Source: Roseovarius confluentis
Lineage (GTDB): Bacteria; Pseudomonadota; Alphaproteobacteria; Rhodobacterales; Rhodobacteraceae
Length of the DNA: 64,000 nt
Assembly: GCF_002917925.1 (NCBI RefSeq)
Contig: NZ_PPFE01000012.1
Location: forward strand, 62,001-126,000
Direction: 5' to 3'
In this document: in pieces, positions 28,453-43,133 of the stretch
Position numbering within the stretch: position 1 is the stretch's first letter
How the letters are laid out: every line of letters begins with the position of its first letter
Program-made: the position numbers and the translations under genes
Notes under the pieces: model-generated
The model's input: only the letters and a program-made list of their open reading frames with translations
Databases searched by the model: none
What the model was told of the DNA's origin: nothing

Positions 28453-28468
28453 GGCATCCCATGCGCCT

Positions 28469-28494
28469 GGCGGCGGGTTGAGGAGCCCGCCGCC
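28469..28494 (+). promoter_or_regulatory. strong intercistronic hairpin between ligase and glxB
   Basis: Nine-bp GGCGGCGGG/CCCGCCGCC stem with an eight-base loop and no T-run. It could protect or process the upstream mRNA, giving the ligase a different level from glxBCD. Inference. Confidence 0.45.
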
Positions 28495-28532
28495 GATCTA
28501 ACGACTATGCAACCCAGAGGAGGCGTTTCCAG

Positions 28533-29468
28533 ATGTGTGGAATTGCTGGACTAATCTACAAGGGCAAGAGCAGCGACGTGGGGTCGGAGATGACCTCGAT
28601 GCTGCTGGCGCTCAAGCACCGTGGGCCGGACAGCACCGGCTACGCGGTATACGGTGAACCGACCGAGGGCGATTACATCATGCGCCTAAAGGTGGCCGAG
28701 GCCGAGGACATGGAAAAGGGCCGTGGCGTTCACAAGGTGATCGAGGACCGCATCGCCTATGTCGAACAGGTGATGGAAGAGCATGGCGCCAAGATCAAGT
28801 CCAAGGAAGCGCCCTTGGAATACGCGCTGCGCTACGTGTTCAGCGGGGCCGACAATGTCGGCGAGATGGCCGAGCATATCGAGGAAACCGATGGGATCGA
28901 GATCCTGTCGATGGGCAACGGCCTGGAGCTGATCAAGGATCTGGGCGATGCGTCGGTGGTGTCGAAGGCGTACGGCCTCAACGATTTCAAGGGCACGCAT
29001 GCCATCGGGCATACGCGGATGGCCACGGAATCGGACGTCGACATCAAGTCGGCACACCCCTACTGGGCGTTTCCCTATAACGACGTGAGCGTGGTGCATA
29101 ACGGCCAGATCACCAACTACTGGATCATGCGCCGCGAGATGGAGCGCAAGGGCCACCGGTTCATGTCGAACTGCGACAGCGAACTGCTGGCGGTCTATAC
29201 CGCGCACAACCTGGCCAACGGCATCACGCTGGAAGAGTCCCTGCGCAAGTCGATCGAGGAGATCGACGGGGTGTTCACCTATCTTGTGGCCACCAAGGAT
29301 CAGCTGGGCATGGCGAAGGACACGATGGCGGCGAAACCGCTGGTTCTTTACGAATCCGACGACCTGATCGCCATGGCGAGCGAAGAGGTGGCGATCCGCG
29401 CGATCCTTCCGCAGGAAATCGACACGACAGATCCCTATGATGAGGAGGTCCGGGTATGGCAAGCGTAA
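28533..29468 (+). CDS. glxB: class II glutamine amidotransferase subunit (GlxB/MgsA-like)
   Basis: A 311-aa subunit equal to the amidotransferase domain of glutamate synthase. The N-terminal nucleophile Cys follows Met in MCGIAGLIYKGKSS. Further family motifs are HRGPDSTGYAVYG, GTHAIGHTRMATESDVDIKS and VHNGQITNYW, then SNCDSELLAVY. It releases ammonia (or an amine, in N-methylglutamate synthase) from glutamine or a gamma-glutamylamide. A clear GGAGG precedes ATG 28533. Its end overlaps glxC by 13 bases, so the two are coupled. A ~70-residue insert relative to minimal amidotransferase domains (around 70-140) is usual for GlxB. Confidence 0.88.
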   Translation: MCGIAGLIYKGKSSDVGSEMTSMLLALKHRGPDSTGYAVYGEPTEGDYIMRLKVAEAEDMEKGRGVHKVIEDRIAYVEQVMEEHGAKIKSKEAPLEYALRYVFSGADNVGEMAEHIEETDGIEILSMGNGLELIKDLGDASVVSKAYGLNDFKGTHAIGHTRMATESDVDIKSAHPYWAFPYNDVSVVHNGQITNYWIMRREMERKGHRFMSNCDSELLAVYTAHNLANGITLEESLRKSIEEIDGVFTYLVATKDQLGMAKDTMAAKPLVLYESDDLIAMASEEVAIRAILPQEIDTTDPYDEEVRVWQA

Positions 29469-30325
29469 GCGACGCAGAACTGAAGAAGATGACCCAGGAA
29501 GAGCGGGTGACCGCGCTGGGCATGCGGACCGAACAGCTGACGGGCAAGTCGCTTTACGTCGAGTTCGACCCGGATGCCGAGGAGCGTTTCACCTATCCGT
29601 GGGCGCCCGACGTGGACTTCAACAAGCGGACCGAGATCGACTGTGACGGCAAGACCGTGACGGAAGTGAACTCGAACATCCGCGAGTTGATGAAGGAAGG
29701 TTACGGCACGATCGTGCTGCAGAACCCGCGGGGCATGCACAGCCTTGGCGTGGGGATCCTGAGCAAGCTGAACCTGATCATCGAAGGCTCGACCGGGTAC
29801 TTTTCCGTCGGCCTGATCGACGGGCCGAACGTGCGCATCAGCGGACGTGTGGGCTGGTCCTGTGGCGAGAACATGATGTCCGGGACGATCATGATCGAGA
29901 AGAACGCAGGCTCGACCTTTGGCGCGGCCATCCGGGGCGGCGACCTTGTGTGCCGGGGCTCGGTGGGCTCGCGCACGGGGATCGACCAGAAGGGCGGCAC
30001 GATCATCGTCGGTGGCGATACCGGCGCGCTGAGTGGCTTCATGATGCAAAGGGGCCGGATGGTGGTCTGCGGCAACGCGGGCAAGAACCTGGGCGACTCG
30101 ATGTATGACGGCACGATCTACGTGGGCGGCGACATCAAGAGCCTGGGCGTGGATGCTGTCGAGGCGGAGTTGACCGAGCTCGACAAGAAGTGGCTGACAC
30201 GGAAGCTGACGCAATATGGCCTGATGCCCGACAAGGGGGTGGATCACTTCACCAAGGTCGTCGCCGGCAAGATGCTGTGGAACTACGACAACCTCGAGCC
30301 GTCCGAGAAGAAACTGATTTTGTAA
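29456..30325 (+). CDS. glxC: glutamate-synthase GXGXG-domain subunit (GlxC/MgsB-like)
   Basis: A 289-aa beta-helix subunit matching the C-terminal GXGXG domain of glutamate synthase, a structural part of the ammonia tunnel. Repeated Gly-rich turns are visible: GRVGWSCGENMMSGTIMIEK, then GGTIIVGGDTGALSGFMMQ, then GTIYVGGDIKSLG. ATG 29456 has GAGGAGG upstream. It lies between glxB and glxD as in the rhizobial glxABCD and the methylotroph mgsABC loci. No catalytic residues of its own. Confidence 0.88.
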   Translation: MASVSDAELKKMTQEERVTALGMRTEQLTGKSLYVEFDPDAEERFTYPWAPDVDFNKRTEIDCDGKTVTEVNSNIRELMKEGYGTIVLQNPRGMHSLGVGILSKLNLIIEGSTGYFSVGLIDGPNVRISGRVGWSCGENMMSGTIMIEKNAGSTFGAAIRGGDLVCRGSVGSRTGIDQKGGTIIVGGDTGALSGFMMQRGRMVVCGNAGKNLGDSMYDGTIYVGGDIKSLGVDAVEAELTELDKKWLTRKLTQYGLMPDKGVDHFTKVVAGKMLWNYDNLEPSEKKLIL

Positions 30326-30326
30326 T

Positions 30327-30382
30327 GGTGGGGTGAAACCCCACCCTACGCCGGACGTGTAGGGTGGGTTTGCAACCCACCT
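30327..30382. repeat. GGGTGGGT palindromic repeat, copy D (two hairpins)
   Basis: Hairpin one GGTGGGGT-GAA-ACCCCACC, then a second TAGGGTGGGTT-TGC-AACCCACCT. It fills the 80-base gap between glxC and glxD, so it is transcribed. Confidence 0.7.
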
Positions 30383-30405
30383 CACCATGCACGAAGGAGA
30401 CAATC

Positions 30406-31770
30406 ATGGCTGATGGTGATCTGCCGCAGAAAAAACAGCTGGACCGCGATGTAAACCGCATCGGTGACAGCTTCATCTTCCCGCCGCGTGTGATGGATGA
30501 CATCCACATCAAGTCCGAGCTTGGCCGGTACCGGATGCGGGGCTTCTCGCTGTTCAAGAAAATCCCGCACTGGGATGACCTGACCTTTTTGCCCGGCACG
30601 CTGACGCGGTTCGTGATCGAAGGGTATCGCGAGAAATGCGAGACCAAGACAGTGATCGGTCCGCGCGCCAAGGTGCCGCTGGAGCTGGATATCCCAGTCT
30701 ATATCACGGGCATGTCGTTCGGCGCATTGTCCTACGAGGCGAAGACCGCGCTGGCGCGGGGCGCCACGATGGCGGGCACGGCGACCTGTTCGGGCGAGGG
30801 GGGCATGATCCCCGACGAGCGGCGCTATAGCTCGAAGTGGTTCTACCAGTGCATCCAGTCGCGCTATGGCTTCAACCCCAACCACCTTGTTCTGGCCGAT
30901 GGCTGTGAATTCTTCATCGGGCAGGGCTGCAAGGTGGGTCTGGGCGGGCACCTGATGGGTCAGAAAGTGACCGACCAGGTGGCCGAGATGCGGTCGCTGC
31001 CCGCGGGGATCGACCAACGCTCGCCGGCGCGGCACCCCGACTGGCTGGGTCCGGACGACCTGGCGCTGAAGATCCAGGAGATCCGCGAGGCGACCGACTG
31101 GCAGATCCCGATCCAGCTGAAGCTGGGGGCCTCCCGCGTGTTCGACGACGTGCGGATGGCGGTGAAGTGCGACCCGGATTCGATCTATATCGACGGGATG
31201 GAAGGTGGCACGGGCGCGGGCCCGCACCTGGCCACGGAAGATACCGGTGTGCCGGGCATGGCGGCGATCCGTCAGGCGCGGAAAGCCATCGACAGCCTTG
31301 GCAAGCGCGGCGAGATCAGCCTGGTCTACGCGGGCGGGATCCGGAACGGCGCGGACGTGGCCAAGGCCATCGCGCTGGGCGCGGATGCCATCGCGATCGG
31401 TCACTCGGCCATGATGGCGCTGAACTGCAACAAGGACATCCCCGAGGCCAATTATCCCGAGGAAATCGGGGCCGAGCCGGGCTATTGCTATCACTGTCAC
31501 ACGGGGCGCTGCCCGGTGGGCGTGGCGACGCAGGATCCCAAGCTGCGCGAGCGGCTGGACCCGGACGAGGCGGCGGAGCGCGTGTACAACTTCCTGCACA
31601 CGCTGACCATCGAGGCGCAGTTGTTCGCACGGGCGTGCGGCAAGACCTACCTGCACTCGCTGGAGCCGGAGGACCTGGCCGCGTTGACGATGGAGGCCTC
31701 GGCCATGGCGGGGGTTCCGCTGGCAGGCACCGGCCATACGGTTGGCGTCGAGGATTATCACCATTTCTAA
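30406..31770 (+). CDS. glxD: FMN-binding glutamate synthase subunit (GlxD/MgsC-like)
   Basis: A 454-aa catalytic subunit equal to the FMN/2-oxoglutarate domain of glutamate synthase. It reductively aminates 2-oxoglutarate to glutamate, or N-methylglutamate in MgsC. FMN-barrel motifs: PVYITGMSFGALSYEAKTAL, then YIDGMEGGTGAGPHLATEDT, then SLVYAGGIRNGADVAKAIAL. The [3Fe-4S] ligands lie in GYCYHCHTGRCPVGVATQDP. ATG 30406 has AAGGAGA upstream. No separate electron-donor (GltD) gene is in the operon, so electrons must come from elsewhere. Confidence 0.9.
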   Translation: MADGDLPQKKQLDRDVNRIGDSFIFPPRVMDDIHIKSELGRYRMRGFSLFKKIPHWDDLTFLPGTLTRFVIEGYREKCETKTVIGPRAKVPLELDIPVYITGMSFGALSYEAKTALARGATMAGTATCSGEGGMIPDERRYSSKWFYQCIQSRYGFNPNHLVLADGCEFFIGQGCKVGLGGHLMGQKVTDQVAEMRSLPAGIDQRSPARHPDWLGPDDLALKIQEIREATDWQIPIQLKLGASRVFDDVRMAVKCDPDSIYIDGMEGGTGAGPHLATEDTGVPGMAAIRQARKAIDSLGKRGEISLVYAGGIRNGADVAKAIALGADAIAIGHSAMMALNCNKDIPEANYPEEIGAEPGYCYHCHTGRCPVGVATQDPKLRERLDPDEAAERVYNFLHTLTIEAQLFARACGKTYLHSLEPEDLAALTMEASAMAGVPLAGTGHTVGVEDYHHF

Positions 31771-31771
31771 A

Positions 31772-31828
31772 CGGTGGGTTGGAAACCCACCCTACGTGTA
31801 CGGCGTAGGGTGGGGTTTACCCCACCTC
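31772..31828. repeat. GGGTGGGT palindromic repeat, copy E (two hairpins)
   Basis: CGGTGGGTTGGAAACCCACC then CTACG, followed by GTAGGGTGGGGTTTACCCCA then CC. It begins 2 bases after the glxD stop and ends before the SD of the next gene. Confidence 0.7.
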
Positions 31829-31847
31829 CCGATAAGGAGGGAAAACA

Positions 31848-32261
31848 ATGGCTGGAACACAATATCGCGGCTCGGAGATTACCGATGTCGACCAGTTCCT
31901 GAAGGACAAGGACGGGCTCGGCTCGGAGCGGGAAAAGGAAATCGGCCAGCATATCGGCTATCGCTATGACGTGAACCTCGTGCCGGATTATGACCGGATC
32001 ACGCCGTTCCTGGAAAAGTACATCGAGACCATGGGCTGGGACGACCTCAACTGGCTGGAAGACGTGCACATGGGTTACGAGGAAGGCTCGCCGGCGGTGT
32101 TCGACCGCAACAACAACGGCTGGGTGCGGGTGCCCGACACGATCGAGCTGCCCGACAACCAGCAGGACCGGGACATGATCGCGCGGGAACTCCTGATCAA
32201 GTTCCAGATGTCGGATCGGCACCCTTTGGTGAACCTGCGCAAGGCCTATATGAAGTTCTGA
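31848..32261 (+). CDS. uncharacterised 137-aa protein in the glx operon
   Basis: A soluble acidic protein, no signal or membrane segment. Features: QYRGSEITDVDQFLKDKDGL, EKEIGQHIGYRYDVNLVPDY, ETMGWDDLNWLEDVHMGYEE, and a basic C terminus NLRKAYMKF. I do not recognise the family. A strong GGAGGG stands 7 bases before ATG 31848, and it is followed 22 bases later by the amidase gene, so it is co-expressed with both the GlxBCD set and the amidase. It might be a small subunit or an adaptor. No function assigned. Confidence 0.75.
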   Translation: MAGTQYRGSEITDVDQFLKDKDGLGSEREKEIGQHIGYRYDVNLVPDYDRITPFLEKYIETMGWDDLNWLEDVHMGYEEGSPAVFDRNNNGWVRVPDTIELPDNQQDRDMIARELLIKFQMSDRHPLVNLRKAYMKF

Positions 32262-32283
32262 AGGAACTTTGAAAGGACCAGAC

Positions 32284-33135
32284 ATGACGCGCCCGATCAA
32301 CATCGCCTGCCTGCAGACGCGGCCCATGCCCGATTTCGCATCGGCCTGGGCGGAAGCGCGGCCTTTGGCCGAACAGGCGGTGGCCGACGGGGCGCAGGTT
32401 CTTTTCCTGCCGGAATATTGCGGTGGGTTGAAAACGGAGGGTGCGGCTGTGGCGGCGCCCTCTGCCCCGGAGGACGAGCAACCGTTCCTGCGCGAGGCGC
32501 AGGCCTTTGCGCGGGCGGCGGGGGTGTGGATGAACCTCGGCTCCATCGCCGTCGATGGCCCGGATGGGCGGATCATCAATCGCGGGATCATGCTGGACGA
32601 TTCCGGCGTGATCCGCGGACGGTATGACAAGATCCACATGTTCGACATCCAGCTGAGCGAAACGGAAGTCTATCGCGAAAGCGAGCGGGTGGCGCCGGGC
32701 AGTCGCGCGGTCATTCACGACACGCCGTTCGGGCGGATCGGGCACACGATCTGTTACGATCTGCGGTTTCCGATGCTGTGGCGCGGCCTGGCGCAGGCCG
32801 GGGCGGAGATGCTGATTTGCCCCGCGGCCTTTACCAGGAAGACGGGCGAGGCGCATTGGCATGTGCTGAACCGGGCGCGGGCGATCGAGACTACGCGGTT
32901 CGTGGTGTCGCCTTGTGCCATAGGTCCGGTGCCGGGCGGGGGCGAATGCTTTGGCCATTCGCTGATTGTCGGACCGTGGGGCGAGGTGCTGGCCGAGGGC
33001 GGCACGGAGCCGGGCGTGGTGCAGGCGGAGATCGACCTTGATGGCGTGGAAAAGGCCGCGGGCCGGGTGCCGAGCCTGATGAGTGACCGGGAGTTCGACA
33101 TGGAAACGCCAGACCCCGAGAGGAGCGTGGCATGA
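32284..33135 (+). CDS. nitrilase-superfamily carbon-nitrogen hydrolase
   Basis: A 283-aa cytoplasmic amidase or nitrilase. The Glu-Lys-Cys catalytic set is seen in VLFLPEYCGG (Glu), GRYDKIHMFDIQLSE (Lys) and IGHTICYDLRFPML (Cys). The C-terminal motif GHSLIVGPWGEVLAE is typical. Overall it is most like the Nit1/omega-amidase branch, which cleaves alpha-ketoacid amides and deaminated glutathione, so an amide made by the ligase upstream is a reasonable substrate. ATG 32284 has GAAAGGA upstream. It overlaps the next gene by 4 bases. Confidence 0.9.
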   Translation: MTRPINIACLQTRPMPDFASAWAEARPLAEQAVADGAQVLFLPEYCGGLKTEGAAVAAPSAPEDEQPFLREAQAFARAAGVWMNLGSIAVDGPDGRIINRGIMLDDSGVIRGRYDKIHMFDIQLSETEVYRESERVAPGSRAVIHDTPFGRIGHTICYDLRFPMLWRGLAQAGAEMLICPAAFTRKTGEAHWHVLNRARAIETTRFVVSPCAIGPVPGGGECFGHSLIVGPWGEVLAEGGTEPGVVQAEIDLDGVEKAAGRVPSLMSDREFDMETPDPERSVA

Positions 33136-33731
33136 CATCTTTGGCGGCCCAACTGGGGCAAAGCTATTCCGACAACCCGCTGCGGCTGGGGTTCCTGAAG
33201 TGGCAGTGCCACGTGCGGCAGCTGGCGATGCGCAACAATGATGGGCGGCCGGATGATGCGATCATGCCGGAAGTCACGCCGGAGGGGCATGATCAGCCGA
33301 TGGGCGTTGTGATCACGCTGTTGAACAAGGCGCCGGGGTATTCGGTGACGCCCGAGTTGCAGCACATGGCGGCCAAGACCAACGACCCGGCGCAGCGGCG
33401 GCAGACCGCGCTGCAATTCCTGTCGGCGACATATTACCAGAAGGCCAAGGAATTTTCTGATATCCTGACCGCGACGTTCCCGCCGGGCAGCGAAGGCGCC
33501 AGGGCGCTGCACGAGGCGGGGCATGCGACGCTGCGCTTCGCGGCTTACGGGCAGGAGTTCGAGCTGGCTTGCAAGGTCTGGCGGTTGGCGCCGCACAACC
33601 TGCTGCACCAGTCGACGATGGCGCATAACGTCCTGTTCAACCCGGCCCTGCCGCCGGCGACCGAGGTTCTGGGGTTCGAGCCCGACTGGGACGCGAGCCG
33701 GGCCGATCCGCCGGTGGGCGCACGGCGGTAA
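33132..33731 (+). CDS. uncharacterised 199-aa protein, last gene of the glx operon
   Basis: A soluble protein with no signal peptide: QLGQSYSDNPLRLGFLKWQC, RQLAMRNNDGRPDDAIMPEV, FLSATYYQKAKEFSDILTAT, ALHEAGHATLRFAAYGQEFE. The HEAGH pentapeptide resembles a zinc-protease HExxH site (here H-E-A-G-H), but the surroundings do not look like a known metallopeptidase, so I do not call it one. Translationally coupled to the amidase (ATGA overlap). Family unknown. Confidence 0.72.
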   Translation: MTSLAAQLGQSYSDNPLRLGFLKWQCHVRQLAMRNNDGRPDDAIMPEVTPEGHDQPMGVVITLLNKAPGYSVTPELQHMAAKTNDPAQRRQTALQFLSATYYQKAKEFSDILTATFPPGSEGARALHEAGHATLRFAAYGQEFELACKVWRLAPHNLLHQSTMAHNVLFNPALPPATEVLGFEPDWDASRADPPVGARR

Positions 33732-33883: not shown

Positions 33884-33930
33884 TAGGCTTGGGGCAATCG
33901 GTCGGGCGATATCGAATTGAATCGACGTAT

Positions 33931-33958
33931 GAATACGAAATGTATACATTATGTATTC
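33931..33958. promoter_or_regulatory. 28-bp palindromic operator upstream of the second GntR operon
   Basis: GAATAC, two bases, AATGTATACATT, two bases, GTATTC. Both arms and the 12-bp core are perfectly symmetric. The core ATGTATACAT is a typical GntR (FCD) operator. It ends 16 bases before the TTG start of the GntR gene, so it should control that gene and the catabolic operon behind it. Confidence 0.75.
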
Positions 33959-33974
33959 AGCAAGGAGATTCGTT

Positions 33975-34679
33975 TTGACCGCCGACAAGAAGACCCAGTG
34001 CCTGGAAGACCTGCGGATGCGCATACTGACGCAGGATATCGCGCCGGGCAGCGACCTGGACGAGGCGACGCTGTGCGAGCGGTATGCCATGTCGCGCACG
34101 CCGATGCGGGAGATCCTGCAGCGGCTGGGCGGTGAGGGGTATGTGGACCTGACGCAGAATCGCGGAGCCAAGGTGGCGTCGATGGACCTGCCGGTGCTGC
34201 GGACGTTCTTTCAGACCGCGCCGATGATCTATGCCAACGTGGCGCGGCTGGCCGCGGAGAACCGACGCGAAGGCGAGATTGACGGGTTGAAGGAGATCCA
34301 GGACTCGTTTCGCCGGGCCACCCAAAGCGGCGACGCGGCGAAGGCGGCGTTGCAGAACCACCGCTTTCACCTGGCGATGGGGGAGATGGCGCACAATCCC
34401 TACCTGCTGCCCAGCCTGAAGCGCATGCTGATCGACCATACGCGGCTGAGCCAGACATTCTATCGCCCCGCATCGGCGGACGAGTCGCTGCGGGTGGTGA
34501 AGGCCTGCGACCACCATGACGCGATGATCGTGGCCATCGAGCGGCAGGAGTCGGGCCTGATGGTGGATCTGACGATCGAGCACTGGAACCTGTCGCGCGA
34601 CCGGCTGGAGCGGTTCGTGAGCCCGGATCCGTTGCCGATTGACGTTTTGCCGATGAAGGATCGTGAAGATGCAGTTTGA
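33975..34679 (+). CDS. GntR-family regulator of the amine-catabolic operon
   Basis: A 234-aa regulator: N-terminal winged helix (LDEATLCERYAMSRTPMREI, residues ~30-60) and a C-terminal FCD domain (~85-215) with the metal-ligand pattern NHRFHLAMGEMAHN and later ACDHHDAMI. I place the start at TTG 33975 because AAGGAG lies eight bases before it and because the in-frame ATG 33951 falls inside the 28-bp operator. First gene of the operon. It overlaps the next gene by 11 bases, so it is probably autoregulated with it. Confidence 0.85.
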   Translation: MTADKKTQCLEDLRMRILTQDIAPGSDLDEATLCERYAMSRTPMREILQRLGGEGYVDLTQNRGAKVASMDLPVLRTFFQTAPMIYANVARLAAENRREGEIDGLKEIQDSFRRATQSGDAAKAALQNHRFHLAMGEMAHNPYLLPSLKRMLIDHTRLSQTFYRPASADESLRVVKACDHHDAMIVAIERQESGLMVDLTIEHWNLSRDRLERFVSPDPLPIDVLPMKDREDAV

Positions 34680-35577
34680 GGGGATCTGGACGCCCATCGT
34701 GACGCCCTATCGTGAGGATTTCACGGTGGACGAGGGCGCGTTGGGCGACGTGGTGGAGCAGTTGATCGCGGGTGGTGTGGCCGGGATCATCAGTGCGGGG
34801 ACCACGGGCGAATATTACGCGCAGAGCTTTGAAGAGCGGGCGTGGCTGGCGGCCAAGACGCATGAGCTGATCCGTGGCCGTGTGCCGCTGGTCGTGGGCA
34901 CGGGCGCGTTGCGCACCGAGGACAGCATCGAATTCGCGAAAATGGCGAAGGACGTGGGCGCGGATGCGATCCTCGTGGCGACGCCGCCTTATTCGGTGCC
35001 GACGGGGCGCGAGATTGCGCTGCACGCGCTGGCGATCGACCGGGCGGTGGATATGCCGGTGATGCTGTACAATTACCCGGGCCGGATGGGCGTGAACATG
35101 GACGAGGAGACCTTGGATCGCCTGGGCCGCTCGGCCAATTTCTGCGGCATCAAGGAGAGCAGCGGCGACATCAACCGGCTGCACCTGATCGCGCGGGACT
35201 ATCCGCATCTGGGCCTTCTCTGCGGGATGGATGACCAGGCGCTGGAGTTCTTTGCCTGGGGCGCGAAGGGCTGGGTCTGTGCCGGGTCGAATTTCGCGCC
35301 CGAGGCGCATGTGGCGCTGTACCGGGCCTGCGTGGTGGAGGGGGATTTCACCAAGGGGCGGGCGATCATGAGTGCGATGATGCCGCTGATGCGGGTGTTG
35401 GAGCAGGGCGGCAAGTTCATCCAGTGCATCAAGCATGGCGTGACGATGCGGGGCATTCCGGCGGGGCCGCCGCGCAAGCCGCTGTTGCCGCTGAACAAGG
35501 ATGACAAGCGTAGCCTCGAAGAGGTGATCCGCACGATGAACACGGCCATTGCCGCGATCGAAGGGGGCAAGAAATGA
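34669..35577 (+). CDS. dihydrodipicolinate-synthase-family lyase/aldolase
   Basis: A 302-aa class I aldolase fold. The Schiff-base Lys is K162 (FCGIKESSGDI), the proton-relay Tyr is Y134 (VMLYNYPGRMG), and the pyruvate-binding loop is SAGTTGEYYAQS. This family includes lysine-biosynthetic DapA, but also catabolic lyases and deaminases such as the hydroxyproline-pathway pyrroline carboxylate deaminase. Its place in a catabolic operon favours the latter sort. ATG 34669 has AAGGA upstream; GTG 34663 is a near alternative. Overlaps ALDH by 4 bases. Confidence 0.87.
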   Translation: MQFEGIWTPIVTPYREDFTVDEGALGDVVEQLIAGGVAGIISAGTTGEYYAQSFEERAWLAAKTHELIRGRVPLVVGTGALRTEDSIEFAKMAKDVGADAILVATPPYSVPTGREIALHALAIDRAVDMPVMLYNYPGRMGVNMDEETLDRLGRSANFCGIKESSGDINRLHLIARDYPHLGLLCGMDDQALEFFAWGAKGWVCAGSNFAPEAHVALYRACVVEGDFTKGRAIMSAMMPLMRVLEQGGKFIQCIKHGVTMRGIPAGPPRKPLLPLNKDDKRSLEEVIRTMNTAIAAIEGGKK

Positions 35578-37067
35578 GCGAGCTTCTGACACGGGACGAG
35601 TATGGCGCGATTGCCGCCGAGATCGATCTGCCCAAGGCGCCCTTTGTCGATGGCAAGTTCCGCAAGGGATCGGGGCCGGTGATGGAGACTGTGAACCCCG
35701 CGACGGGGGACGTGCTGGCGAAGATCTCGACCGCGAACACGAAGGACGTGGATTTCGCGGTGGAGAAGGCGCGGCAGGCGTTTGAGCGCGGGGAGTGGGC
35801 GAAGGCGCATCCGAGCGCGCGGAAGGATGTGCTGATCCGGTTTGCCAAATTGATCACGCGGCGGCGGCATGAGTTCGCGGTGATGGAGAGCCTCGATAGT
35901 GGCAAGCCGATCCGCGATTGCGAGGCCGTGGACATTCCCGAGGTCATTCACACGATCAAGTGGCATGCCGAGTTGATCGACAAGATCTATGACCAGGTGG
36001 GGCCGTCGGGCGACGACGCGCTGAGCCTGATCGTGCGGGAGCCGCTGGGCGTGGTGGCCTGCGTGCTGCCGTGGAACTTTCCTCTGCTGATGATGGCGTG
36101 GAAGATCGGGCCGGCGCTGGCCGCCGGAAACTCGGTGATCGTGAAGCCCGCCGAGCAGACCTCGCTGACCGCGTTGCGGCTGGCGGAAGTGGCGCATATG
36201 GCGGGCGTGCCGCGCGGCGTGTTGCAGGTGCTGCCGGGGGATGGGCCGAGCGTGGGCGAGCCGCTGGGCCTGCATATGGGCGTGGACATGGTGAGCTTTA
36301 CCGGCTCGACCGAGACCGGCAAGCGGTTCCTGCGCTATGCGGCGGACAGCAACATGAAGAAGGTCACGCTGGAATGCGGGGGCAAGAACCCCGCTGTTGT
36401 CCTGGAGGATGCCGAGAACCTCGATCACGTGGCCGAGCACGTGGTGAACGCGGCGTTCTGGAACATGGGTGAGAACTGTTCGGCGGCCAGCCGGGTGATC
36501 GTGCACAAGGCCGTCAAGGCACCGCTGATGGAGCGGATCGTGGCGCGGATGCGCGACTGGAAGACCGGCGATCCGTTGGACCCGGCGAACCATCTGGGCG
36601 CGCTGGTGGATGCCGAGCATTGCAAGAAGGTGGCCGGCTATCTCAAAGGCAAGGCGGTGGCCGGGGGCGGCAAGCCAAAGGGCAATTTCATCGAGCCGAC
36701 GGTGTACGAGGTGAAGAAGGACGACAAGCGGGCAAAGGAGGAGATCTTTGGCCCGGTCCTGTCGGTGATCGAGGTGGCGAGCGAGGCCGAGGCGATCGAA
36801 TTGGCCAATGACACGGCGTATGGGCTGGCGGCGTCCGTCTTTACCGGGAACGTGCGCCGCGCGATCCGGGCGGCGCGGGAGATCCGGGCGGGGACGGTGA
36901 CGGTGAACTGCTACGGCGAGGGGGACATCGCCACGCCCTTTGGTGGGTACAAGCAGTCAGGCTTTGGCGGGCGGGACAATGGCGTGCATGCGCATGACCA
37001 GTTCACCGAGGTGAAAACGATCTGGGTCGATCTGAGCGATCCCAAGGATGGGGACAACGTCGGGTAG
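35574..37067 (+). CDS. NAD(P)-dependent aldehyde dehydrogenase, PuuC/betaine-aldehyde type
   Basis: A 497-aa aldehyde dehydrogenase, oxidising an aldehyde to the acid. The cofactor region is VACVLPWNFPLLMMAWKIGP, then SFTGSTETGKRFL. The general-base Glu is in VTLECGGKNPAVV and the nucleophile Cys in NMGENCSAASRV. The C-terminal FGGRDNGVHAHDQFTEVKTI matches the amino-aldehyde subgroup that includes gamma-glutamyl-gamma-aminobutyraldehyde dehydrogenase (PuuC). Coupled to the lyase by ATGA. Its stop codon is the TAG at the start of palindromic repeat F. Confidence 0.9.
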   Translation: MSELLTRDEYGAIAAEIDLPKAPFVDGKFRKGSGPVMETVNPATGDVLAKISTANTKDVDFAVEKARQAFERGEWAKAHPSARKDVLIRFAKLITRRRHEFAVMESLDSGKPIRDCEAVDIPEVIHTIKWHAELIDKIYDQVGPSGDDALSLIVREPLGVVACVLPWNFPLLMMAWKIGPALAAGNSVIVKPAEQTSLTALRLAEVAHMAGVPRGVLQVLPGDGPSVGEPLGLHMGVDMVSFTGSTETGKRFLRYAADSNMKKVTLECGGKNPAVVLEDAENLDHVAEHVVNAAFWNMGENCSAASRVIVHKAVKAPLMERIVARMRDWKTGDPLDPANHLGALVDAEHCKKVAGYLKGKAVAGGGKPKGNFIEPTVYEVKKDDKRAKEEIFGPVLSVIEVASEAEAIELANDTAYGLAASVFTGNVRRAIRAAREIRAGTVTVNCYGEGDIATPFGGYKQSGFGGRDNGVHAHDQFTEVKTIWVDLSDPKDGDNVG

Positions 37068-37121
37068 GGTGGGTGTGAACCCACCAGCGCAGCAACGGTG
37101 GGTTGGCACCCACCCTACGAG
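37064..37121. repeat. GGGTGGGT palindromic repeat, copy F (two hairpins)
   Basis: GTAGGGTGGGTGTGAACCCA then CC, then GGTGGGTTGGCACCCACC and CTACGA. The first arm supplies the TAG stop of the aldehyde dehydrogenase gene, and the second ends 11 bases before the next start. Confidence 0.7.
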
Positions 37122-37131
37122 GAATAACGCG

Positions 37132-38688
37132 ATGGATGAGGTTATGGAAAAGAAGTCCGCAAGGCGGGGGCGCGGGGCACGCACGGCGCAGCGCGCGGTG
37201 CGGGACGTGAAGATGTTGCCCAGCCTGAAGCGGGGGCTGCCGCTGACCGAGCCGATGAGTGCGGAAGAGATCGAGCGGATTGACGCTGCGAGCATGGATA
37301 TCCTTGAGACTGTCGGCGTGGTGTTCCGCGACGAGATCGCGATTGCCGACTGGAAGCGGGTCGGCGCGGAGGTGCGCGACGGCGACCGGGTGCATCTGGA
37401 CCGGGGGCTGGTGCGGGAGTTGATCAAGTCGATCCCCGAGACGTTCACTTATCACGCGCGGAACCCGGCGCATAACCTGCCCTTCGGCAAGGATCATGCG
37501 ATTTTCGTGCCGATGACGGGCGCGCCGTTCCTGCGGGATCTGGACGATGTGCGGCGGAACCCGACGCTGGACGACCTGGCGAACTTCCACAAGCTGGCGC
37601 AGATGTCGCCCGCGCTGCATTCCAGCGCGCATCATATCGTGGAGCCTTATGACCACCCGATCAGCCAGCGGCATTTGCGGATCACCTATTCGTCGATGAA
37701 GCATTCGGACAAGACGTTCATGGGGATGACGACCAGCCCCAAGAACGCCGAGGACGTGATTGAGATGTGTGCGATCCTCTTCGGAGAAGACTTCCTTGAG
37801 GATCATCCGGTGGCGACGGGGAACTGCAACGGCAACAGCCCGCTTGTGTGGGACGAGACGATGCTGGGCGCGATGCGGGCGTTCTGCAAGCGTAACCAGC
37901 CGGTGCTGTGCAGCCCGTTCGTGCTGGGCGGGGCCAATACGCCGGCGTCCGTGGCACCGGCGGTGGCGCAGTTGAATGCCGAGGCGCTGAGCGCGCTGGC
38001 CTATACACAGGTCATTCGCAAGGGGGCGCCGGCGATCTATGGGCATTACCTGTCGACGGTCAGCATGAAGTCGGGCGCGCCGATGGCGGGGACGCCGGAA
38101 ATTTCCCTGATGAACATGATGATCGGGCAGATGGCGCGGTTTTATGGCGTGCCGTGGCGGTCCTCGACCAACTTGGGTGGGGCCAAGACGCTGGACGCGC
38201 AGGCGGGGTACGAGAGTGCCACGACCCTGATGGCGTTGCAGATGGCGGGGACGAATTACATGTGGCACGCGGCAGGTTGGAACGAGGCCGGGATGCATTG
38301 TTCGATGGCGAAGTTCGTGATCGACGCCGAGCAATGCGCGATGGCCTACCGGATGGCCGAGGGCATCCGCTGGGACGATTTCGACGAGGCTGTGGCAGCC
38401 GTGGGCGATATCGGGCCGGGGGGGCATTACCTGGGCCACCCCCATACGTTGGCGAATTTTCAGCGGGCGTTCTTCATGCCGGATCTGTTCGACAACAACT
38501 CGATCGAGCAATGGCAGGCCGAGGGTGCGGTCGAGGCGAATGCAAGGGCGCAGGCCTATGCGCGCAAGATGCTGAACGAGTACGAAGAACCGAAGCTGGA
38601 CGAGGGTGTGAACGAGGCGCTGCTGGCGTATATTGCGAAGCGGGAGGCCGAGATCCCGGCGGCGGATGCGCTGAACCAGGAGTATTGA
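37132..38688 (+). CDS. MttB-family (trimethylamine methyltransferase-like) protein without pyrrolysine
   Basis: A 518-aa TIM-barrel protein of the MttB superfamily. Non-pyrrolysine members demethylate quaternary amines such as glycine betaine, passing the methyl to a corrinoid protein. Landmarks: DAASMDILETVGVVFRDE, GNCNGNSPLVWDETMLGAMR, SPFVLGGANTPASVAPAVAQ, HYLGHPHTLANFQRAFFMPD. No internal TAG codon, so no pyrrolysine. No corrinoid-protein gene is in the operon. ATG 37132 has GAGGA eight bases upstream. Likely a methylated-amine or betaine demethylase. Substrate unproven. Confidence 0.85.
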   Translation: MDEVMEKKSARRGRGARTAQRAVRDVKMLPSLKRGLPLTEPMSAEEIERIDAASMDILETVGVVFRDEIAIADWKRVGAEVRDGDRVHLDRGLVRELIKSIPETFTYHARNPAHNLPFGKDHAIFVPMTGAPFLRDLDDVRRNPTLDDLANFHKLAQMSPALHSSAHHIVEPYDHPISQRHLRITYSSMKHSDKTFMGMTTSPKNAEDVIEMCAILFGEDFLEDHPVATGNCNGNSPLVWDETMLGAMRAFCKRNQPVLCSPFVLGGANTPASVAPAVAQLNAEALSALAYTQVIRKGAPAIYGHYLSTVSMKSGAPMAGTPEISLMNMMIGQMARFYGVPWRSSTNLGGAKTLDAQAGYESATTLMALQMAGTNYMWHAAGWNEAGMHCSMAKFVIDAEQCAMAYRMAEGIRWDDFDEAVAAVGDIGPGGHYLGHPHTLANFQRAFFMPDLFDNNSIEQWQAEGAVEANARAQAYARKMLNEYEEPKLDEGVNEALLAYIAKREAEIPAADALNQEY

Positions 38689-38718
38689 GAACGCGCCGCG
38701 GCGCGGGGAGTGACGCAC

Positions 38719-39903
38719 ATGGGCAACCTGCCGTATCTGGACCTGAAAGACCCGGAGTTTTCGACCCGGGGGGCGGAGGTCGTCGCGGCGCGCAAGGCCC
38801 ATTGGTGCGCCGAGACGCCCTTTGGCCTGGCGGTGCTGCGGTATCGGCAGGTGGGCAAGATCCTGCGCGACCGGCGGTTTCGACAGGGCAGCCATAACTG
38901 GCCGGATACGGTCGGGATCGAAGGGCGCTTCGCGGATTTCTGGCGGGATTCGGTGATCGGGCGCGAAGGCGACGCGCATCAGAAGCTGCGGGCACTTGCG
39001 GTGCCGGCGCTGAGCGAGGACTACGTGCTGTCGCTGGTCCCGGCCTTTGATGAGATTGCGCGGGACCTTTGTGCTGACCTGCGCGGCAAATCTTCCTGCG
39101 AGTTTCAATCGGCGTTTTGCGAACCCTTCGCGGGGCAGGCGATCACGACCCTGCTGGGGATGGAGCGCGAGGCGTGGCCGCTGGTGGCGCATAATGCCGC
39201 GGATCTGGGGCTGGCGATGGGGATCGAGGCGCCGAAATACCAGGAGCGGTTCAACGCGGCCTGCGAGACGCTGTTTCAACTGGCCGATCAACTGGTGGTC
39301 AAGGTGCGGCGCGGCGAGGATAGCGAGAGTTACGTTGCGCGCATGGTGGCGGAGTTCGACCGCAACGGGGACTGCACGCATGAGGAATTGCTGAATACCA
39401 TCGTGATTTCGATCTTCGGGGGTGTGGATACGACGCGGGCGTTGCTGGGGCTTGGCCTGTCGCTGTTCATCGAGAACCCCGGGCAGTGGCAGATGCTGTG
39501 CGAGGACGAGAGCCTGATCCCGAACGCGGTGGAAGAGTTCATCCGCGCGCGGCCGACGACCACCTGGTCCACGCGCGAGGCGGTCGAGGACGTCGAGATG
39601 GACGGGATGATGATCCCCAAGGGCACGGTGCTGAACCTGCTGGTCCATGCGTCGGCGCGGGATCCGGAGATTTGCGAGGACCCGGGCTTTGACATCACGG
39701 TCAAGCGCAAGCGGCATTTCGGGTTCGGCGGCGGGGCGCATCACTGCATCGGGCATTTCGTGGCGCGGACGGACACGGGATGCGCACTGGATGCGTTGCG
39801 GCAGACTTTTCGGACGGTGGACTATGACGGCGCGCCGGAATGGCTTCCGGATAGCGGCAATACCGGAGCGTTGAGGTTGCCCGTTCGTTACGAGGTCGCG
39901 TGA
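38719..39903 (+). CDS. cytochrome P450
   Basis: A 394-aa soluble bacterial P450 monooxygenase. Heme-binding loop FGFGGGAHHCIGHFVAR with axial Cys C343. The I-helix oxygen motif is ISIFGGVDTTRALLG, and the K-helix ExxR is in VEEFIRARPTT. It probably hydroxylates or N-demethylates a small molecule. No ferredoxin or reductase gene is in the operon, so partners are encoded elsewhere. ATG 38719 has GGGGAG eight bases upstream; GTG 38710 is less well placed. Overlaps the next gene by one base (TGATG). Confidence 0.93.
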   Translation: MGNLPYLDLKDPEFSTRGAEVVAARKAHWCAETPFGLAVLRYRQVGKILRDRRFRQGSHNWPDTVGIEGRFADFWRDSVIGREGDAHQKLRALAVPALSEDYVLSLVPAFDEIARDLCADLRGKSSCEFQSAFCEPFAGQAITTLLGMEREAWPLVAHNAADLGLAMGIEAPKYQERFNAACETLFQLADQLVVKVRRGEDSESYVARMVAEFDRNGDCTHEELLNTIVISIFGGVDTTRALLGLGLSLFIENPGQWQMLCEDESLIPNAVEEFIRARPTTTWSTREAVEDVEMDGMMIPKGTVLNLLVHASARDPEICEDPGFDITVKRKRHFGFGGGAHHCIGHFVARTDTGCALDALRQTFRTVDYDGAPEWLPDSGNTGALRLPVRYEVA

Positions 39904-40634
39904 TGCGATTCGACGGCAAGGTCGCGCTGGTCACGGGGGCCGCAGGCGGCATCGGGGCTGCGCTGGTGCGGGCGCTCCGGGCGGAGGGCGCACGACTTGC
40001 GGTGAGTGACCGCGACAGTTCTGCCGTCGAGGCGGAGGCGCATCTGGATGGCGACCTTTTGGATGGTGCCTTCTGCGATGCATTGCCCGGGCGGGTCGAG
40101 AATGCCTTGGGCGGTCTGGACTTGGTGTTCAACAATGCCGGCGTCATCACGCGCGGCGATATCACCACGACGCGCGATGACGACTGGCGCCTGACCATTG
40201 GGGTGAACGTGGAGGCGCCGTTTCGGATTTGCCGGGCGGCGATCCCGATCCTGGCCGCGCGGGGCGGCGGGGCGATCGTGAACACGTCTTCCTGTTGGGG
40301 TTTGCGGCCGGGACCGAACCATCCGGTCTACGTGACGAGCAAGGCGGCGATTGCCAGCCTGACGCAATGCCTGGGCCGGGATCATGCGCATCAGGGAATA
40401 CGCGTGAACGCGGTCTGCCCCAACGAGGTGGACACACCGATGCTGCGCACGGGCTTTGCGGCACGCGGGCTGGACCCGGAGCAGGCGATCAAAGACCTGA
40501 ACGCGAGCGTGCCTGTGGGGCATATCGCAAGCCCGGAAGAGATCGTGGACGTGATGCTGTTCCTGGCGTCGGACGCGGCGCGGTACATGTGCGGGGCGCT
40601 GGTCGAAGTGAATGGTGGAAAAGCCGTGATATGA
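39903..40634 (+). CDS. short-chain dehydrogenase/reductase (first of two)
   Basis: A 243-aa classical SDR. The NAD(P) motif is VALVTGAAGGIGAAL and the NNAG motif LVFNNAGVIT. The catalytic Ser is in AIVNTSSCWG, with Tyr and Lys in VYVTSKAAIAS. C-terminal DTPML and VNGGKA motifs are normal. Acidic residues after the second strand (VSDRDSS) suggest NAD(H). It oxidises an alcohol or reduces a ketone in the pathway. ATG 39903 overlaps the P450 stop, and its own stop overlaps the second SDR by 4 bases. Confidence 0.92.
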   Translation: MRFDGKVALVTGAAGGIGAALVRALRAEGARLAVSDRDSSAVEAEAHLDGDLLDGAFCDALPGRVENALGGLDLVFNNAGVITRGDITTTRDDDWRLTIGVNVEAPFRICRAAIPILAARGGGAIVNTSSCWGLRPGPNHPVYVTSKAAIASLTQCLGRDHAHQGIRVNAVCPNEVDTPMLRTGFAARGLDPEQAIKDLNASVPVGHIASPEEIVDVMLFLASDAARYMCGALVEVNGGKAVI

Positions 40635-41362
40635 GCAGGTTCGAAGGCAAGGTCGCGCTGGTAACCGGCGGGTCGAGCGGCATGGGCGCGGCCACTGCGG
40701 CGATCCTGGCCGAGGGCGGCGCGCGGGTGTTCTGTGCGCAGCGCGGCGGGTCGGCGCACGAGGATATCGCGGCGGATTTCAGCGATGACTCCGTGCCCGA
40801 GCGGGTGATGGCGGCGGTTGCCCAGAAGGCAGGTACGCTCGACATCCTGGTGAACAATGCCGGGATGATGCGCGAGGGCACGGTCGAGGAAACGTCGAAG
40901 GCGGACTGGGATATCCAGTTGCATATGAACCTGACGGTGCCGTTTCTGCTGATCCGTCACGGAATGGCGATGCTGCGCGAGGGCGGTGGCGCGATCGTCA
41001 ATCTCGGCTCGGTCGAGGGGCTTGGAGCGAACCCGCGGCACCCGGCCTATTGTGCATCGAAGGCGGGTTTGCACGGGTTGACACGGTCCGTGGCGGTGGA
41101 CCACGGCAAGGATGGCGTGCGCTGCAACGCGGTGGCGCCGGGGTGGATCGACACGCCGCTGAACGAGGGTTTCATCGACAGCATGCCGGACCCGGCGGCG
41201 TTTCGCGCCGGGATCGCGGGGATACACCCGGTGCGGCGGACGGGCAAACCCGAGGAAGTGTCGCAATTGATCTGCTGGCTGGCAAGCGACGAGGCGAGTT
41301 TCGTGACGGGACAGGTCTGGACCATTGACGGCGGCCGGATGGCCCAGTTGAGCCTGCCATGA
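40631..41362 (+). CDS. short-chain dehydrogenase/reductase (second of two)
   Basis: A 243-aa classical SDR distinct from its neighbour. Cofactor motif VALVTGGSSGMGAATA, then DILVNNAGMMREG. The catalytic Ser lies in IVNLGSVEGLG, with Tyr and Lys in AYCASKAGLHGL. C-terminal WIDTPLN and TIDGGRM. A Gln-Arg pair after the second strand (CAQRGGS) hints at NADP(H), the opposite of the first SDR; this is only a hint. Coupled on both sides by ATGA overlaps. Confidence 0.92.
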   Translation: MSRFEGKVALVTGGSSGMGAATAAILAEGGARVFCAQRGGSAHEDIAADFSDDSVPERVMAAVAQKAGTLDILVNNAGMMREGTVEETSKADWDIQLHMNLTVPFLLIRHGMAMLREGGGAIVNLGSVEGLGANPRHPAYCASKAGLHGLTRSVAVDHGKDGVRCNAVAPGWIDTPLNEGFIDSMPDPAAFRAGIAGIHPVRRTGKPEEVSQLICWLASDEASFVTGQVWTIDGGRMAQLSLP

Positions 41363-42687
41363 AGGTGCGCCAGTTGCCCTGTGATCCGGGTGTGACCGGG
41401 TGGAACGCGATCCTGCCCGAAGCGGAGCCGGCGAAGCCGCTGGAAGGGGCGATGACGGCGGATTGGCTGGTGATCGGCGGCGGGTTCGCGGGGCTGGCGG
41501 CCGTGCGGCGGTTGAGCCAGCTGCACCCCGAGGCGAAGATCGTCCTTTTGGAAGCCAAGCGGATCGGGGAGGGGCCTGCGGGGCGGAACTCGGGCTTCAT
41601 GATCGATTTGCCGCATGACCTGTCATCGAAGGATTATGGCGGGGCGCTGGAGAAGGACGTCAGGCAGACGCGGATGAACCGGACGGCCATCGGTTTCGCC
41701 GGAGAGATGGCGGAGGCCTTCGGGTTGGGCGCGGAGGCATGGCAGCAGACGGGAAAGACCAACGCGGCGGCGAGCGGGAAAGGGCATCGGCACAATCTTG
41801 ATTATGCCGCGCATCTTGAAGCGATGGGCGAGGCGCATGAATTGCTGGATGCTGGTGCCATGCACGACATGACCGGATCGGAGTATTATCGCAGCGGGCT
41901 CTATACGCCCGGCACGGCGATGATCCAGCCGGCGCTGTTCGTGCGCGGCGTGGCGCGGGGCCTGGTCAGCAACCGGGTGCGCATTTGCGAGGGGTCGCCG
42001 GTGACCGAATTGCGGCGCGACGGCGATTGGGTGGCCGTGACTCCGAAGGGCCGGGTGACGGCGCCGAAGGTGATCCTGGCGGTGAATGGTCATGCCGAGA
42101 GTTTCGGGCAGTTCAAGGGACGCCTGTTGCACCTGTTCCTGTATGCCTCGATGACGCGGCCGCTGACCAACGGCGAGAATGCCCGGCTTGGCGCGGAACG
42201 CTGGGGACTGACCCCGGCGGACCCGATGGGCAGCACGGTGCGCAAGATCAGCGGCACGGGCGGCACGCGGATCATCATGCGCAACCGTGTGACTTATGAT
42301 CCGTCACTGAAGGTCTCCCAAGGGCGCGTGGCACGGATGAGCCGGTCGCATGACAGGGCCCTCGCGGCACGGTTTCCCCAGCTTGCGGGTGTCGAGATGG
42401 AGTATCGCTGGGGTGGGCGGCTGTGCCTGAGCTGGAACGGCGCGCCGGCGCTGGGTGAGGTGGAGGAGGGGCTGTTCTCGGCCTGTTGCCAGAACGGGCT
42501 TGGCACGGCGCGGGGCACGCTCCATGGGATGGCGATGGCGGAGCTGGCCTCGGGCGTCGAGAGCGATATCGTGGAGCATGTCATGGCGCAGGGGGAGCCG
42601 TCGCGCCTACCGCCGTTGCCGTTCACCTATGTCGGGGCAAATGCCACGATGAAGTGGGGGGAATGGAAGGCGGGGGCGGAGCTGTAG
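41359..42687 (+). CDS. FAD-dependent amine/amino-acid oxidoreductase (DAO family), last gene of operon
   Basis: A 442-aa flavoprotein of the D-amino-acid-oxidase family. FAD motif DWLVIGGGFAGLAAVRRLSQ near residue 35, then RIGEGPAGRNSGFMIDLPHD, and a C-terminal flavin contact FSACCQNGLGTARGTLHGMA. It resembles PuuB-type and sarcosine/dimethylglycine-type oxidases, which oxidise secondary amines and release aldehydes or formaldehyde. The start overlaps the SDR stop by 4 bases. It may complete N-demethylation after the MttB or P450 step. Cytoplasmic. Confidence 0.88.
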   Translation: MKVRQLPCDPGVTGWNAILPEAEPAKPLEGAMTADWLVIGGGFAGLAAVRRLSQLHPEAKIVLLEAKRIGEGPAGRNSGFMIDLPHDLSSKDYGGALEKDVRQTRMNRTAIGFAGEMAEAFGLGAEAWQQTGKTNAAASGKGHRHNLDYAAHLEAMGEAHELLDAGAMHDMTGSEYYRSGLYTPGTAMIQPALFVRGVARGLVSNRVRICEGSPVTELRRDGDWVAVTPKGRVTAPKVILAVNGHAESFGQFKGRLLHLFLYASMTRPLTNGENARLGAERWGLTPADPMGSTVRKISGTGGTRIIMRNRVTYDPSLKVSQGRVARMSRSHDRALAARFPQLAGVEMEYRWGGRLCLSWNGAPALGEVEEGLFSACCQNGLGTARGTLHGMAMAELASGVESDIVEHVMAQGEPSRLPPLPFTYVGANATMKWGEWKAGAEL

Positions 42688-42717
42688 CCCAAGATTATTC
42701 GTGCGAATAATCTTGGG
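42688..42717. terminator. perfect 14-bp hairpin after the catabolic operon
   Basis: CCCAAGATTATTCG, two-base loop TG, CGAATAATCTTGGG. It starts at the first base after the stop codon. AT-rich in a GC-rich region. Probably the operon terminator, shared with the convergent cueR. Confidence 0.6.
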
Positions 42718-42746: not shown

Positions 42747-43133
42747 TCAGTGGCGGGCGAGGTCGTTCAGGATCGGGCAATCGGGGCGGTTGTCGCCGGC
42801 GCAGCAGTCGATGAGGTGGCCGAGCGTGTCGGCCATGGATTGCAGTTGCGCGATTTTCTCGTTGATCTGTTCCAGGTGCTGGCGGGCGATGGATTTGACG
42901 TCGGCGCTGGCGCGGGTGTCGTCCTCGTAAAGTGCCAGCAGCGTGCGGCAATCCTCGATGGAAAAGCCCAAGGTCCGGGCGCGGCCCAGGAAGGCCAGCT
43001 TGTGCAGGTGGCTGTCGGTGAAGACGCGATAGCCGTTGGCGCCACGGTCGGGCGTGATGAGGCCGATCTCCTCGTAGTAACGGATGGTTTTGGGCGGCAG
43101 GCCGGTCTTGTCTGCGATCTGCGAGATGTTCAT
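42747..43133 (-). CDS. cueR: copper-responsive MerR-family regulator CueR
   Basis: A 128-aa MerR-type activator of copper efflux. The N-terminal helix-turn-helix is NISQIADKTGLPPKTIRYYE, followed by EIGLITPDRGANGYR. A coiled-coil dimer helix leads to a C-terminal Cu(I) site with the CueR spacing: CCAGDNRPDCPIL. It overlaps the copA stop by 4 bases and follows it in the same operon. Its likely binding site is the promoter at 45584-45614. Confidence 0.93.
   Translation of the reverse strand: MNISQIADKTGLPPKTIRYYEEIGLITPDRGANGYRVFTDSHLHKLAFLGRARTLGFSIEDCRTLLALYEDDTRASADVKSIARQHLEQINEKIAQLQSMADTLGHLIDCCAGDNRPDCPILNDLARH

Follow-up and report, generated by a model that had tools for sequence, protein, structure and literature searches.

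The stretch analysed here, 64,000 nucleotides of the Roseovarius confluentis genome (contig NZ_PPFE01000012.1, positions 62,001 to 126,000) called hereafter the window, hosts an operon of eight genes probably serving the catabolism of a methylated proline-ring compound. The genes, all on the + strand, fill positions 33975-42687, and have been identified by combining the list of open reading frames (ORFs) with Pfam profile searches. An earlier note, made from the letters alone, had described an eight-gene operon with the same families, and Pfam and the gene calls agree with it. The genes and the accompanying elements are:

33930..33959, no strand: putative GntR operator, palindrome TGAATAC-N16-GTATTCA with TGTATACA at its centre (33941-33948), from motif counts
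33975..34679, + strand: GntR/FCD transcriptional regulator (Pfam PF00392 and PF07729)
34669..35577, + strand: lyase of the DHDPS superfamily, DapA (Pfam PF00701)
35574..37067, + strand: aldehyde dehydrogenase, ALDH (Pfam PF00171)
37068..37131, no strand: 64-base gap with inverted repeat between ALDH and MttB (sequence)
37132..38688, + strand: quaternary-amine:corrinoid methyltransferase of the MttB superfamily, without pyrrolysine (PF06253)
38719..39903, + strand: cytochrome P450, CYP151-like (PF00067)
39903..40634, + strand: short-chain dehydrogenase 1, SDR1 (Pfam PF13561)
40631..41362, + strand: short-chain dehydrogenase 2, SDR2 (Pfam PF13561)
41359..42687, + strand: FAD-dependent amino-acid oxidase/dehydrogenase of the DAO family (PF01266)
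42688..42717, no strand: perfect inverted repeat of 14 bases, directly following the DAO stop (sequence)

As had been noted, most junctions overlap by 1-11 bases: five of the seven do in the sequence, by 11, 4, 1, 4 and 4 bases, the P450-SDR1 overlap growing from 1 to 4 bases if a GTG is the SDR1 start. The remaining two are gaps of 64 bases (ALDH-MttB) and 30 bases (MttB-P450). No transporter, ferredoxin or corrinoid gene is found inside the operon (33975-42687), as had been stated before. Genes were called by a codon-usage model made for this analysis and trained partly on the operon genes, which chose the eight ORFs over longer antisense ORFs; the same caller, trained per locus, was used in relatives. 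The eight ORFs are conserved across genera, and are hence real genes. Among the matches listed, no NCBIfam cut-off is passed by GntR, ALDH, MttB, P450, the SDRs or DAO. Among the titles listed by literature searches on MttB in roseobacters, (hydroxy)proline betaine catabolism and homarine, none describes the operon.

Conservation of the operon and of the putative operator

Relatives have been compared at two levels. The named loci are the best 80 matches of the scan listing, hence close relatives, and loci cut by contig ends are kept in the denominators of their counts. The family set includes 295 genomes from 294 genera, and neighbourhoods refer to 40 of 78 MttB places, mostly the best-scoring ones. 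Near MttB, the named loci feature ALDH (73), DAO (69), DapA (68) and GntR (60), and all four together in 54/80. Because of these frequencies, the conserved core is GntR-DapA-ALDH-MttB-DAO. In the family set, 77 genomes match MttB at 1e-150 and 78 match DAO at 1e-80; 73 genomes do both.

Accessory genes found near MttB in the 80 named loci encode SDRs (29), ProC-like proteins (12), P450 (9) and HpbD (8), more rarely HpbA-like (5), ProV-like (4) and ProW-like (2) proteins. The P450 and the two SDRs had been taken as regular operon parts; they are present here, but are optional additions outside the core. P450-bearing named loci are labelled Roseovarius in 6 cases out of 9, and SDRs are spread more widely. 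The closest named relative among the best 80 is Roseovarius atlanticus R12B (MttB 96%). The ProC-like (pyrroline-carboxylate-reductase-like) gene, which scores 103.5 bits in NCBIfam, below the cut-off of 254, lies between ALDH and MttB in L141, L147, L149 and other loci (L and G numbers denote loci and genomes of this analysis); in the sister locus L141 it is found where the window has the 37068-37131 repeat. The latter is an inverted-repeat element of the GTAGGGTGGGT type, similar traces of which have been seen by eye in other ORF translations of the window.

Exact copies of TGTATACA, searched from about 260 bases upstream of GntR to 30 bases inside it, are found in 42 of 62 loci, the window counted, vs 0.8 expected from the frequency of the motif in the same loci. 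GntR probably controls its own operon. The three plasmid loci examined, L237-L239, yielded no copy of the motif. One of these, L238 (S. meliloti AK57 pSymA), hosts the same operon with tblastn matches fragmented in ALDH, DAO, MttB and HpbD, and is possibly decaying or affected by assembly errors.

MttB and its plausible corrinoid partner

The family assignment of MttB made in the earlier note is borne out by a PF06253 score of 707.8 bits (cut-off 25). No in-frame stop/pyrrolysine codon is found in the gene or in the listed family matches. Among solved structures, the protein scores 489 bits to 4yyc, and 362-363 bits to 2qne and to the glycine betaine methyltransferase 9yce. The R. confluentis genome carries in all five PF06253 genes.

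Excerpts of work on aerobic Ruegeria pomeroyi describe cobalamin-dependent betaine demethylation by an MttB-family enzyme together with MtgC and MtgD, with RamA and DUF1638 helpers; they leave other PF06253 genes unassigned, and report that marine bacteria bearing mtgC often have several (up to seven) MttB-family genes, for which diverse substrates are suggested (PMC12478193). The absence of a corrinoid protein, as previously annotated, holds for the operon and not for the genome, which encodes elsewhere a standalone corrinoid protein of 234 amino acids. Its best NCBIfam match is MtgC, at 200.9 bits (under the cut-off of 370), and a DUF1638 gene is located one small ORF away. Given this pair of genes, the corrinoid partner of MttB is plausibly supplied in trans by the MtgC-like protein. 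As seen in the same excerpts (PMC12478193), the R. pomeroyi MtgBCD system for glycine betaine demethylation is similar in relying on a PF06253 enzyme in an aerobic roseobacter, and the R. confluentis genome has, in addition, the MtgC-like protein with DUF1638 close by. In contrast, operon partners differ, and a cyclic betaine would be used here in place of glycine betaine. In the same genome, an apparent MetH is encoded by two adjacent ORFs of 357 and 888 amino acids (L137:7828-11564).

Substrate and proposed route

The genes linked to the operon in relatives are informative on the substrate. HpbD is encoded by 16/295 family genomes, and 15 of these 16 also carry the operon-type MttB, which is found in 77/295 overall (p=7.5e-9; the genomes being related, this and the Fisher p-values given below overstate independence). 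Eleven of the 17 HpbD copies lie within about 6 kb of MttB. The linked enolase-family gene is identified as HpbD because the proteins of relatives reach 611-671 bits against PDB 4e8g/4izg/4j1o and 525-548 against 2pmq/4h2h, all of which we take to be hydroxyproline-betaine epimerases. Paracoccus homologues are named hpbD, 4-hydroxyproline betaine 2-epimerase, in RefSeq, and the P. pantotrophus protein shares 77.7% identity with that of C. sphaeroides. In plasmid pB of C. sphaeroides 2.4.1 the order is GlxA regulator, ProX, permease, ProV / GntR-DapA-ALDH-DAO / SDR-SDR-HpbD-MttB. The hpbD/hpbA locus of P. pantotrophus pPAN2 features instead, beside hpbD, a Rieske oxygenase and a reductase where the operons have MttB, along with a betaine ATP-binding cassette (ABC) transporter and a pyrroline-5-carboxylate-reductase-type gene. 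HpbA-like proteins encoded close to MttB (5/80 named loci) are 43-50% identical to P. pantotrophus HpbA, and others, 67-68% identical, lie 7-10 kb from MttB in L109 and L118. The R. confluentis genome encodes outside the operon (C1:404161-406200) a full-length HpbA (N-methylproline demethylase), 69% identical, adjoining an ORF with, by eye, the look of a TetR-type regulator; three further, weaker relatives show 32% identity to the query. The statement that the operon has no recognised substrate was thus too pessimistic, as hpbD, HpbA-like, ProC-like and ProXWV genes beside the operon in relatives point to a proline-ring betaine.

It is improbable that another cyclic betaine, such as 3-hydroxyproline betaine or pipecolate betaine, is the main substrate. 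The best NCBIfam match of HpbD relatives is cis-3-hydroxy-L-proline dehydratase (259.8-261.4 bits, cut-off 500), and DAO matches L-pipecolate oxidase (122.4 bits, cut-off 600), but both scores are far under cut-off, and the linked epimerase is called 4-hydroxyproline betaine 2-epimerase in RefSeq.

DapA residues T46, Y108, Y134, R139 and K162, invariant in 20 orthologues, presumably match active-site residues of DHDPS; T45, which we take as the position of the catalytic threonine, is not invariant in the same set. The substrate of DapA would presumably be a five-ring analogue of the DHDPS product. The protein just passes the NCBIfam dapA cut-off (206.5 of 206.15 bits). Since the genome has three other DHDPS-family genes, one scoring 301.7 vs 213.7 Pfam bits for the operon DapA, this is read as a superfamily signal. 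The previous description of the lyase as cleaving or deaminating can be narrowed, as the protein is better read as a deaminase acting after DAO. The same residues could fit an aldolase too, and hence an acyclic betaine bearing a hydroxyl, for instance N,N,N-trimethylhomoserine, the head group of betaine lipids: MttB would demethylate it, DAO would yield a 4-hydroxy-2-oxo acid, and DapA would release pyruvate. The methylamine-type block located upstream (see below) goes in this direction. However, the HpbD, HpbA-like and ProC-like neighbours all indicate a proline ring, and make this scheme very improbable.

No solved relative of DAO was detected by phmmer at 1e-5, and a fold search was therefore used. 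The AlphaFold model (predicted local distance difference test, pLDDT, 89.8) is closest in fold to glycine oxidase, D-arginine dehydrogenase, sarcosine oxidase and L-proline dehydrogenase, at 13-19% identity. DAO, formerly regarded as a demethylase, is on the basis of the model better read as an amino-acid oxidase of the ring, with a fold like that of glycine/D-amino-acid/sarcosine oxidases. ALDH would be a 2-oxoglutarate semialdehyde dehydrogenase. In excerpts of PMC4113996, DAAO, DHDPS and ALDH are the superfamilies of the 4-hydroxyproline route, and by Pfam the whole trio is present in the operon.

The trio also bears on the hypothesis of a substrate lacking the hydroxyl, proline betaine (stachydrine) or N-methylproline, with DAO, DapA and ALDH serving a different branch. 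The MttB superfamily includes MtpB, the proline betaine methyltransferase of Eubacterium limosum, described in excerpts of PMC12155760; MtpB is comparable, by description and not by sequence, as a non-pyrrolysine enzyme acting on a cyclic betaine, although its host is an anaerobic acetogen. ProC-like and HpbA-like genes near the operons of relatives would fit stachydrine as well. Yet proline needs neither a DHDPS-family deaminase nor a semialdehyde dehydrogenase, and DapA (68/80) and ALDH (73/80) accompany MttB; the hypothesis is considered unlikely.

Altogether, the operon is read, with a probability of roughly 0.6, as a GntR-controlled system by which a proline-ring betaine is catabolised aerobically, 4-hydroxyproline betaine being the likeliest one. 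Hydroxyproline betaine is a natural osmolyte. What is observed is the gene content, the linkage, the conservation and the conserved operator-like site; every chemical step of the route outlined here is inferred. MttB would move one N-methyl group off the quaternary nitrogen to the MtgC-like corrinoid protein encoded elsewhere, and the methyl would then pass to tetrahydrofolate; in the known Hpb pathway this demethylation is the task of a Rieske demethylase, which MttB would replace. N-methyl-hydroxyproline would lose its second methyl via the HpbA encoded elsewhere in the genome, the CYP151-like P450, or both. Cis-4-hydroxy-D-proline would be oxidised by DAO to a cyclic imine, opened and deaminated by DapA to 2-oxoglutarate semialdehyde, and converted by ALDH to 2-oxoglutarate. 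The SDR pair may invert C4 via a 4-oxo intermediate; C2 would be inverted by HpbD, which relatives have and this genome lacks, so that different stereoisomers could feed the same route. The proposal of the earlier note, that a betaine is N-demethylated stepwise and then oxidised, is overall supported.

The Hpb pathway is said to have been described by Zhao in 2013 and Kumar in 2014, for hydroxyproline betaine/proline betaine in Paracoccus and Pelagibaca. Shared with it are the HpbD, HpbA-like, ProC-like and betaine ABC genes of some related operons, and the end steps carried out by the DAAO, DHDPS and ALDH superfamilies. It differs in that MttB takes here the place of the Rieske oxygenase and reductase found beside hpbD in P. 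pantotrophus, and in that the R. confluentis genome lacks HpbD. No Rieske demethylase was found among the ten proteins scanned with Pfam, the rest of the genome not having been searched. The operon belongs to a real and widespread family, best read as a variant form of the hydroxyproline-betaine pathway already known, in which the first step depends on a corrinoid protein; in this lineage an unusual P450 is present as well. It would give one widespread MttB-family group a specific, testable substrate, and illustrates how a corrinoid route could replace the oxygenase route in a known pathway.

Several data weigh against this assignment. HpbD is absent from the operon and from the R. confluentis genome (best identity 30%), and being found nearby in 8/80 named loci, is missing from most core loci. 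No 4-hydroxyproline epimerase over cut-off is found in the same genome, which hosts two genes of the proline-racemase family, one for a trans-3-hydroxyproline dehydratase and the other under all cut-offs shown. The lack of HpbD and of such an epimerase leaves the C2 stereochemistry unexplained. The operon itself has no transporter. Plasmid 1 of P. denitrificans PD1222 hosts a DapA-ALDH-DAO trio (61, 60 and 50% identical) with an ABC transporter for glycine betaine close by, and no MttB is found in that stretch. Finally, the trans-4-hydroxy-L-proline (hyp) locus of Sinorhizobium meliloti 1021 pSymB groups GntR, DHDPS-family, ALDH-like and DAO-like ORFs (partly named by eye), along with a 4-hydroxyproline epimerase that passes the cut-off; none of the three window enzymes is, however, an orthologue of its hyp counterpart, the DapA proteins being only 26% identical and the window ALDH and DAO having no match below 1e-8 in the 45-kb hyp region. 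Linkage assigns the operon family more confidently than this particular copy.

P450, methylamine genes and flanking regions

The heme-Cys and I-helix motifs of the P450 (FGGGAHHCIGH and GGVDTT) are intact. The protein is 40.2% identical to the P450 of Gordonia pGKT2, which we take to be CYP151C (cyp151C) and which is followed by a glutamine-synthetase-like frame; members of a P450 family share at least 40% identity. According to excerpts of PMC10516948 and PMC9477822, CYP151/PipA is accompanied by ferredoxin and glutamine synthetase genes, and PipA/MorA act on cyclic secondary amines. Glutamine-synthetase-like genes are linked to the P450 in relatives also here; unlike the known CYP151 proteins, the window P450 is embedded in a betaine operon. 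From these similarities the protein would be a dealkylase of secondary or N-methyl amines, acting on N-methyl-hydroxyproline, dimethylamine or both, and is a candidate secondary-amine demethylase.

P450 homologues at 1e-60 are found in 17/295 genomes. Of the 16 in other genomes, only that of G109 lies inside the operon, and the idea that every homologue marks this operon was rejected. Five loci, L026, L028, L034, L036 and L038, have the homologue near Tmm/Tdm, Tmm being trimethylamine monooxygenase; of these, L026 and L036 were tested, and in each both genes exceed their curated cut-offs. Glutamine-synthetase-like genes lie close to the homologue in L030, L032, L033, L035, L036 and L038, and at a greater distance in L034. 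Neither kind of gene was found near the P450 in L024, L025, L027, L029, L031 and L037; at the end of the L029 stretch, the L026 oxidase gene is matched in part. Ferredoxin and reductase genes accompany the P450 and glutamine-synthetase-like genes in L030, L032 and L033, and an ABC transporter and a glutamine amidotransferase do so in L242; the four loci look like pathways for gamma-glutamylated amines. In the P450 tree, operon proteins form one clade (100/99), which groups at 94/86 with a clade including P450s of trimethylamine loci; the proteins of L036 and L038 belong to a separate deep clade.

Tdm, the trimethylamine N-oxide demethylase, is over cut-off in 15/17 P450 genomes vs 68/295 overall (p=6.9e-9). 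Dmm-type genomes (41) are those with a PF11927 match, presumably the Dmm heme subunit, of at least 215 bits, a threshold set by the gap from 215.1 to 199 bits, with no curated cut-off behind it. Of the 68 Tdm genomes, those with P450 have such a high-scoring PF11927 gene in 1/15 cases and those without P450 in 38/53 (p=7e-6); 15/68 have neither. The R. confluentis genome (G000) has Tdm and no PF11927 match, a match being missing also from the P450 genomes G001, G201, G219 and G267. Against a replacement of Dmm by the P450, some PF11927 match, mostly lower-scoring, is found in 228/295 genomes, including 12/17 with P450.

Two linked novelties may be envisaged: in aerobic roseobacters, C. sphaeroides and some rhizobia, the first methyl of hydroxyproline betaine would be removed by a B12-type methyltransferase and not by a Rieske oxygenase, and the lineage of the CYP151-like operon P450 would consist of secondary-amine N-demethylases replacing Dmm in trimethylamine-degrading roseobacters that lack it. 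Taken jointly they are possible though doubtful, the estimate having been lowered because of the 12/17 P450 genomes holding a lower-scoring PF11927 gene. If the former is true, a substrate would be assigned to one orphan MttB-family group of marine bacteria. As to the latter, excerpts of PMC5520151 call the dimethylamine step in the absence of dmmDABC a metabolic bottleneck, and the P450 pattern offers a candidate for this step in bacteria without dmmDABC.

Upstream of the operon, the window features a block by reading assigned to a methylamine-type module, outside the operon:

26983..33731, + strand: GlnIII-like ligase, MgsA-, MgsB- and MgsC-like proteins, hyp137, nitrilase-type hydrolase, hyp199 (Pfam; Mgs names assigned in this analysis)

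No Pfam match was found for hyp137 (137 amino acids) and hyp199 (199 amino acids). In L034, Tmm, TmoX, Tdm and P450 are found on the same stretch as the block GlnIII-MgsABC-hyp137-hydrolase-hyp199. This association, and the presence of P450 homologues in the vicinity of Tmm/Tdm or of glutamine-synthetase-like genes in several genomes, could suggest a part for the operon in trimethylamine/dimethylamine catabolism, the P450 being the key enzyme. Such a role is the least probable of those considered, and trimethylamine catabolism as the function of the whole operon was rejected, since the P450 is near MttB in only 9/80 named loci and the core is found without it in many genera.

At the other end, the 14-base repeat at 42688..42717 is a possible two-way terminator ahead of the convergent next gene. 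A MerR-like regulator and a heavy-metal ATPase-like gene, both named by eye, are located at 42747-45577 on the - strand, convergent with the operon, and the same pair adjoins the operon in a dozen or more clustered loci.

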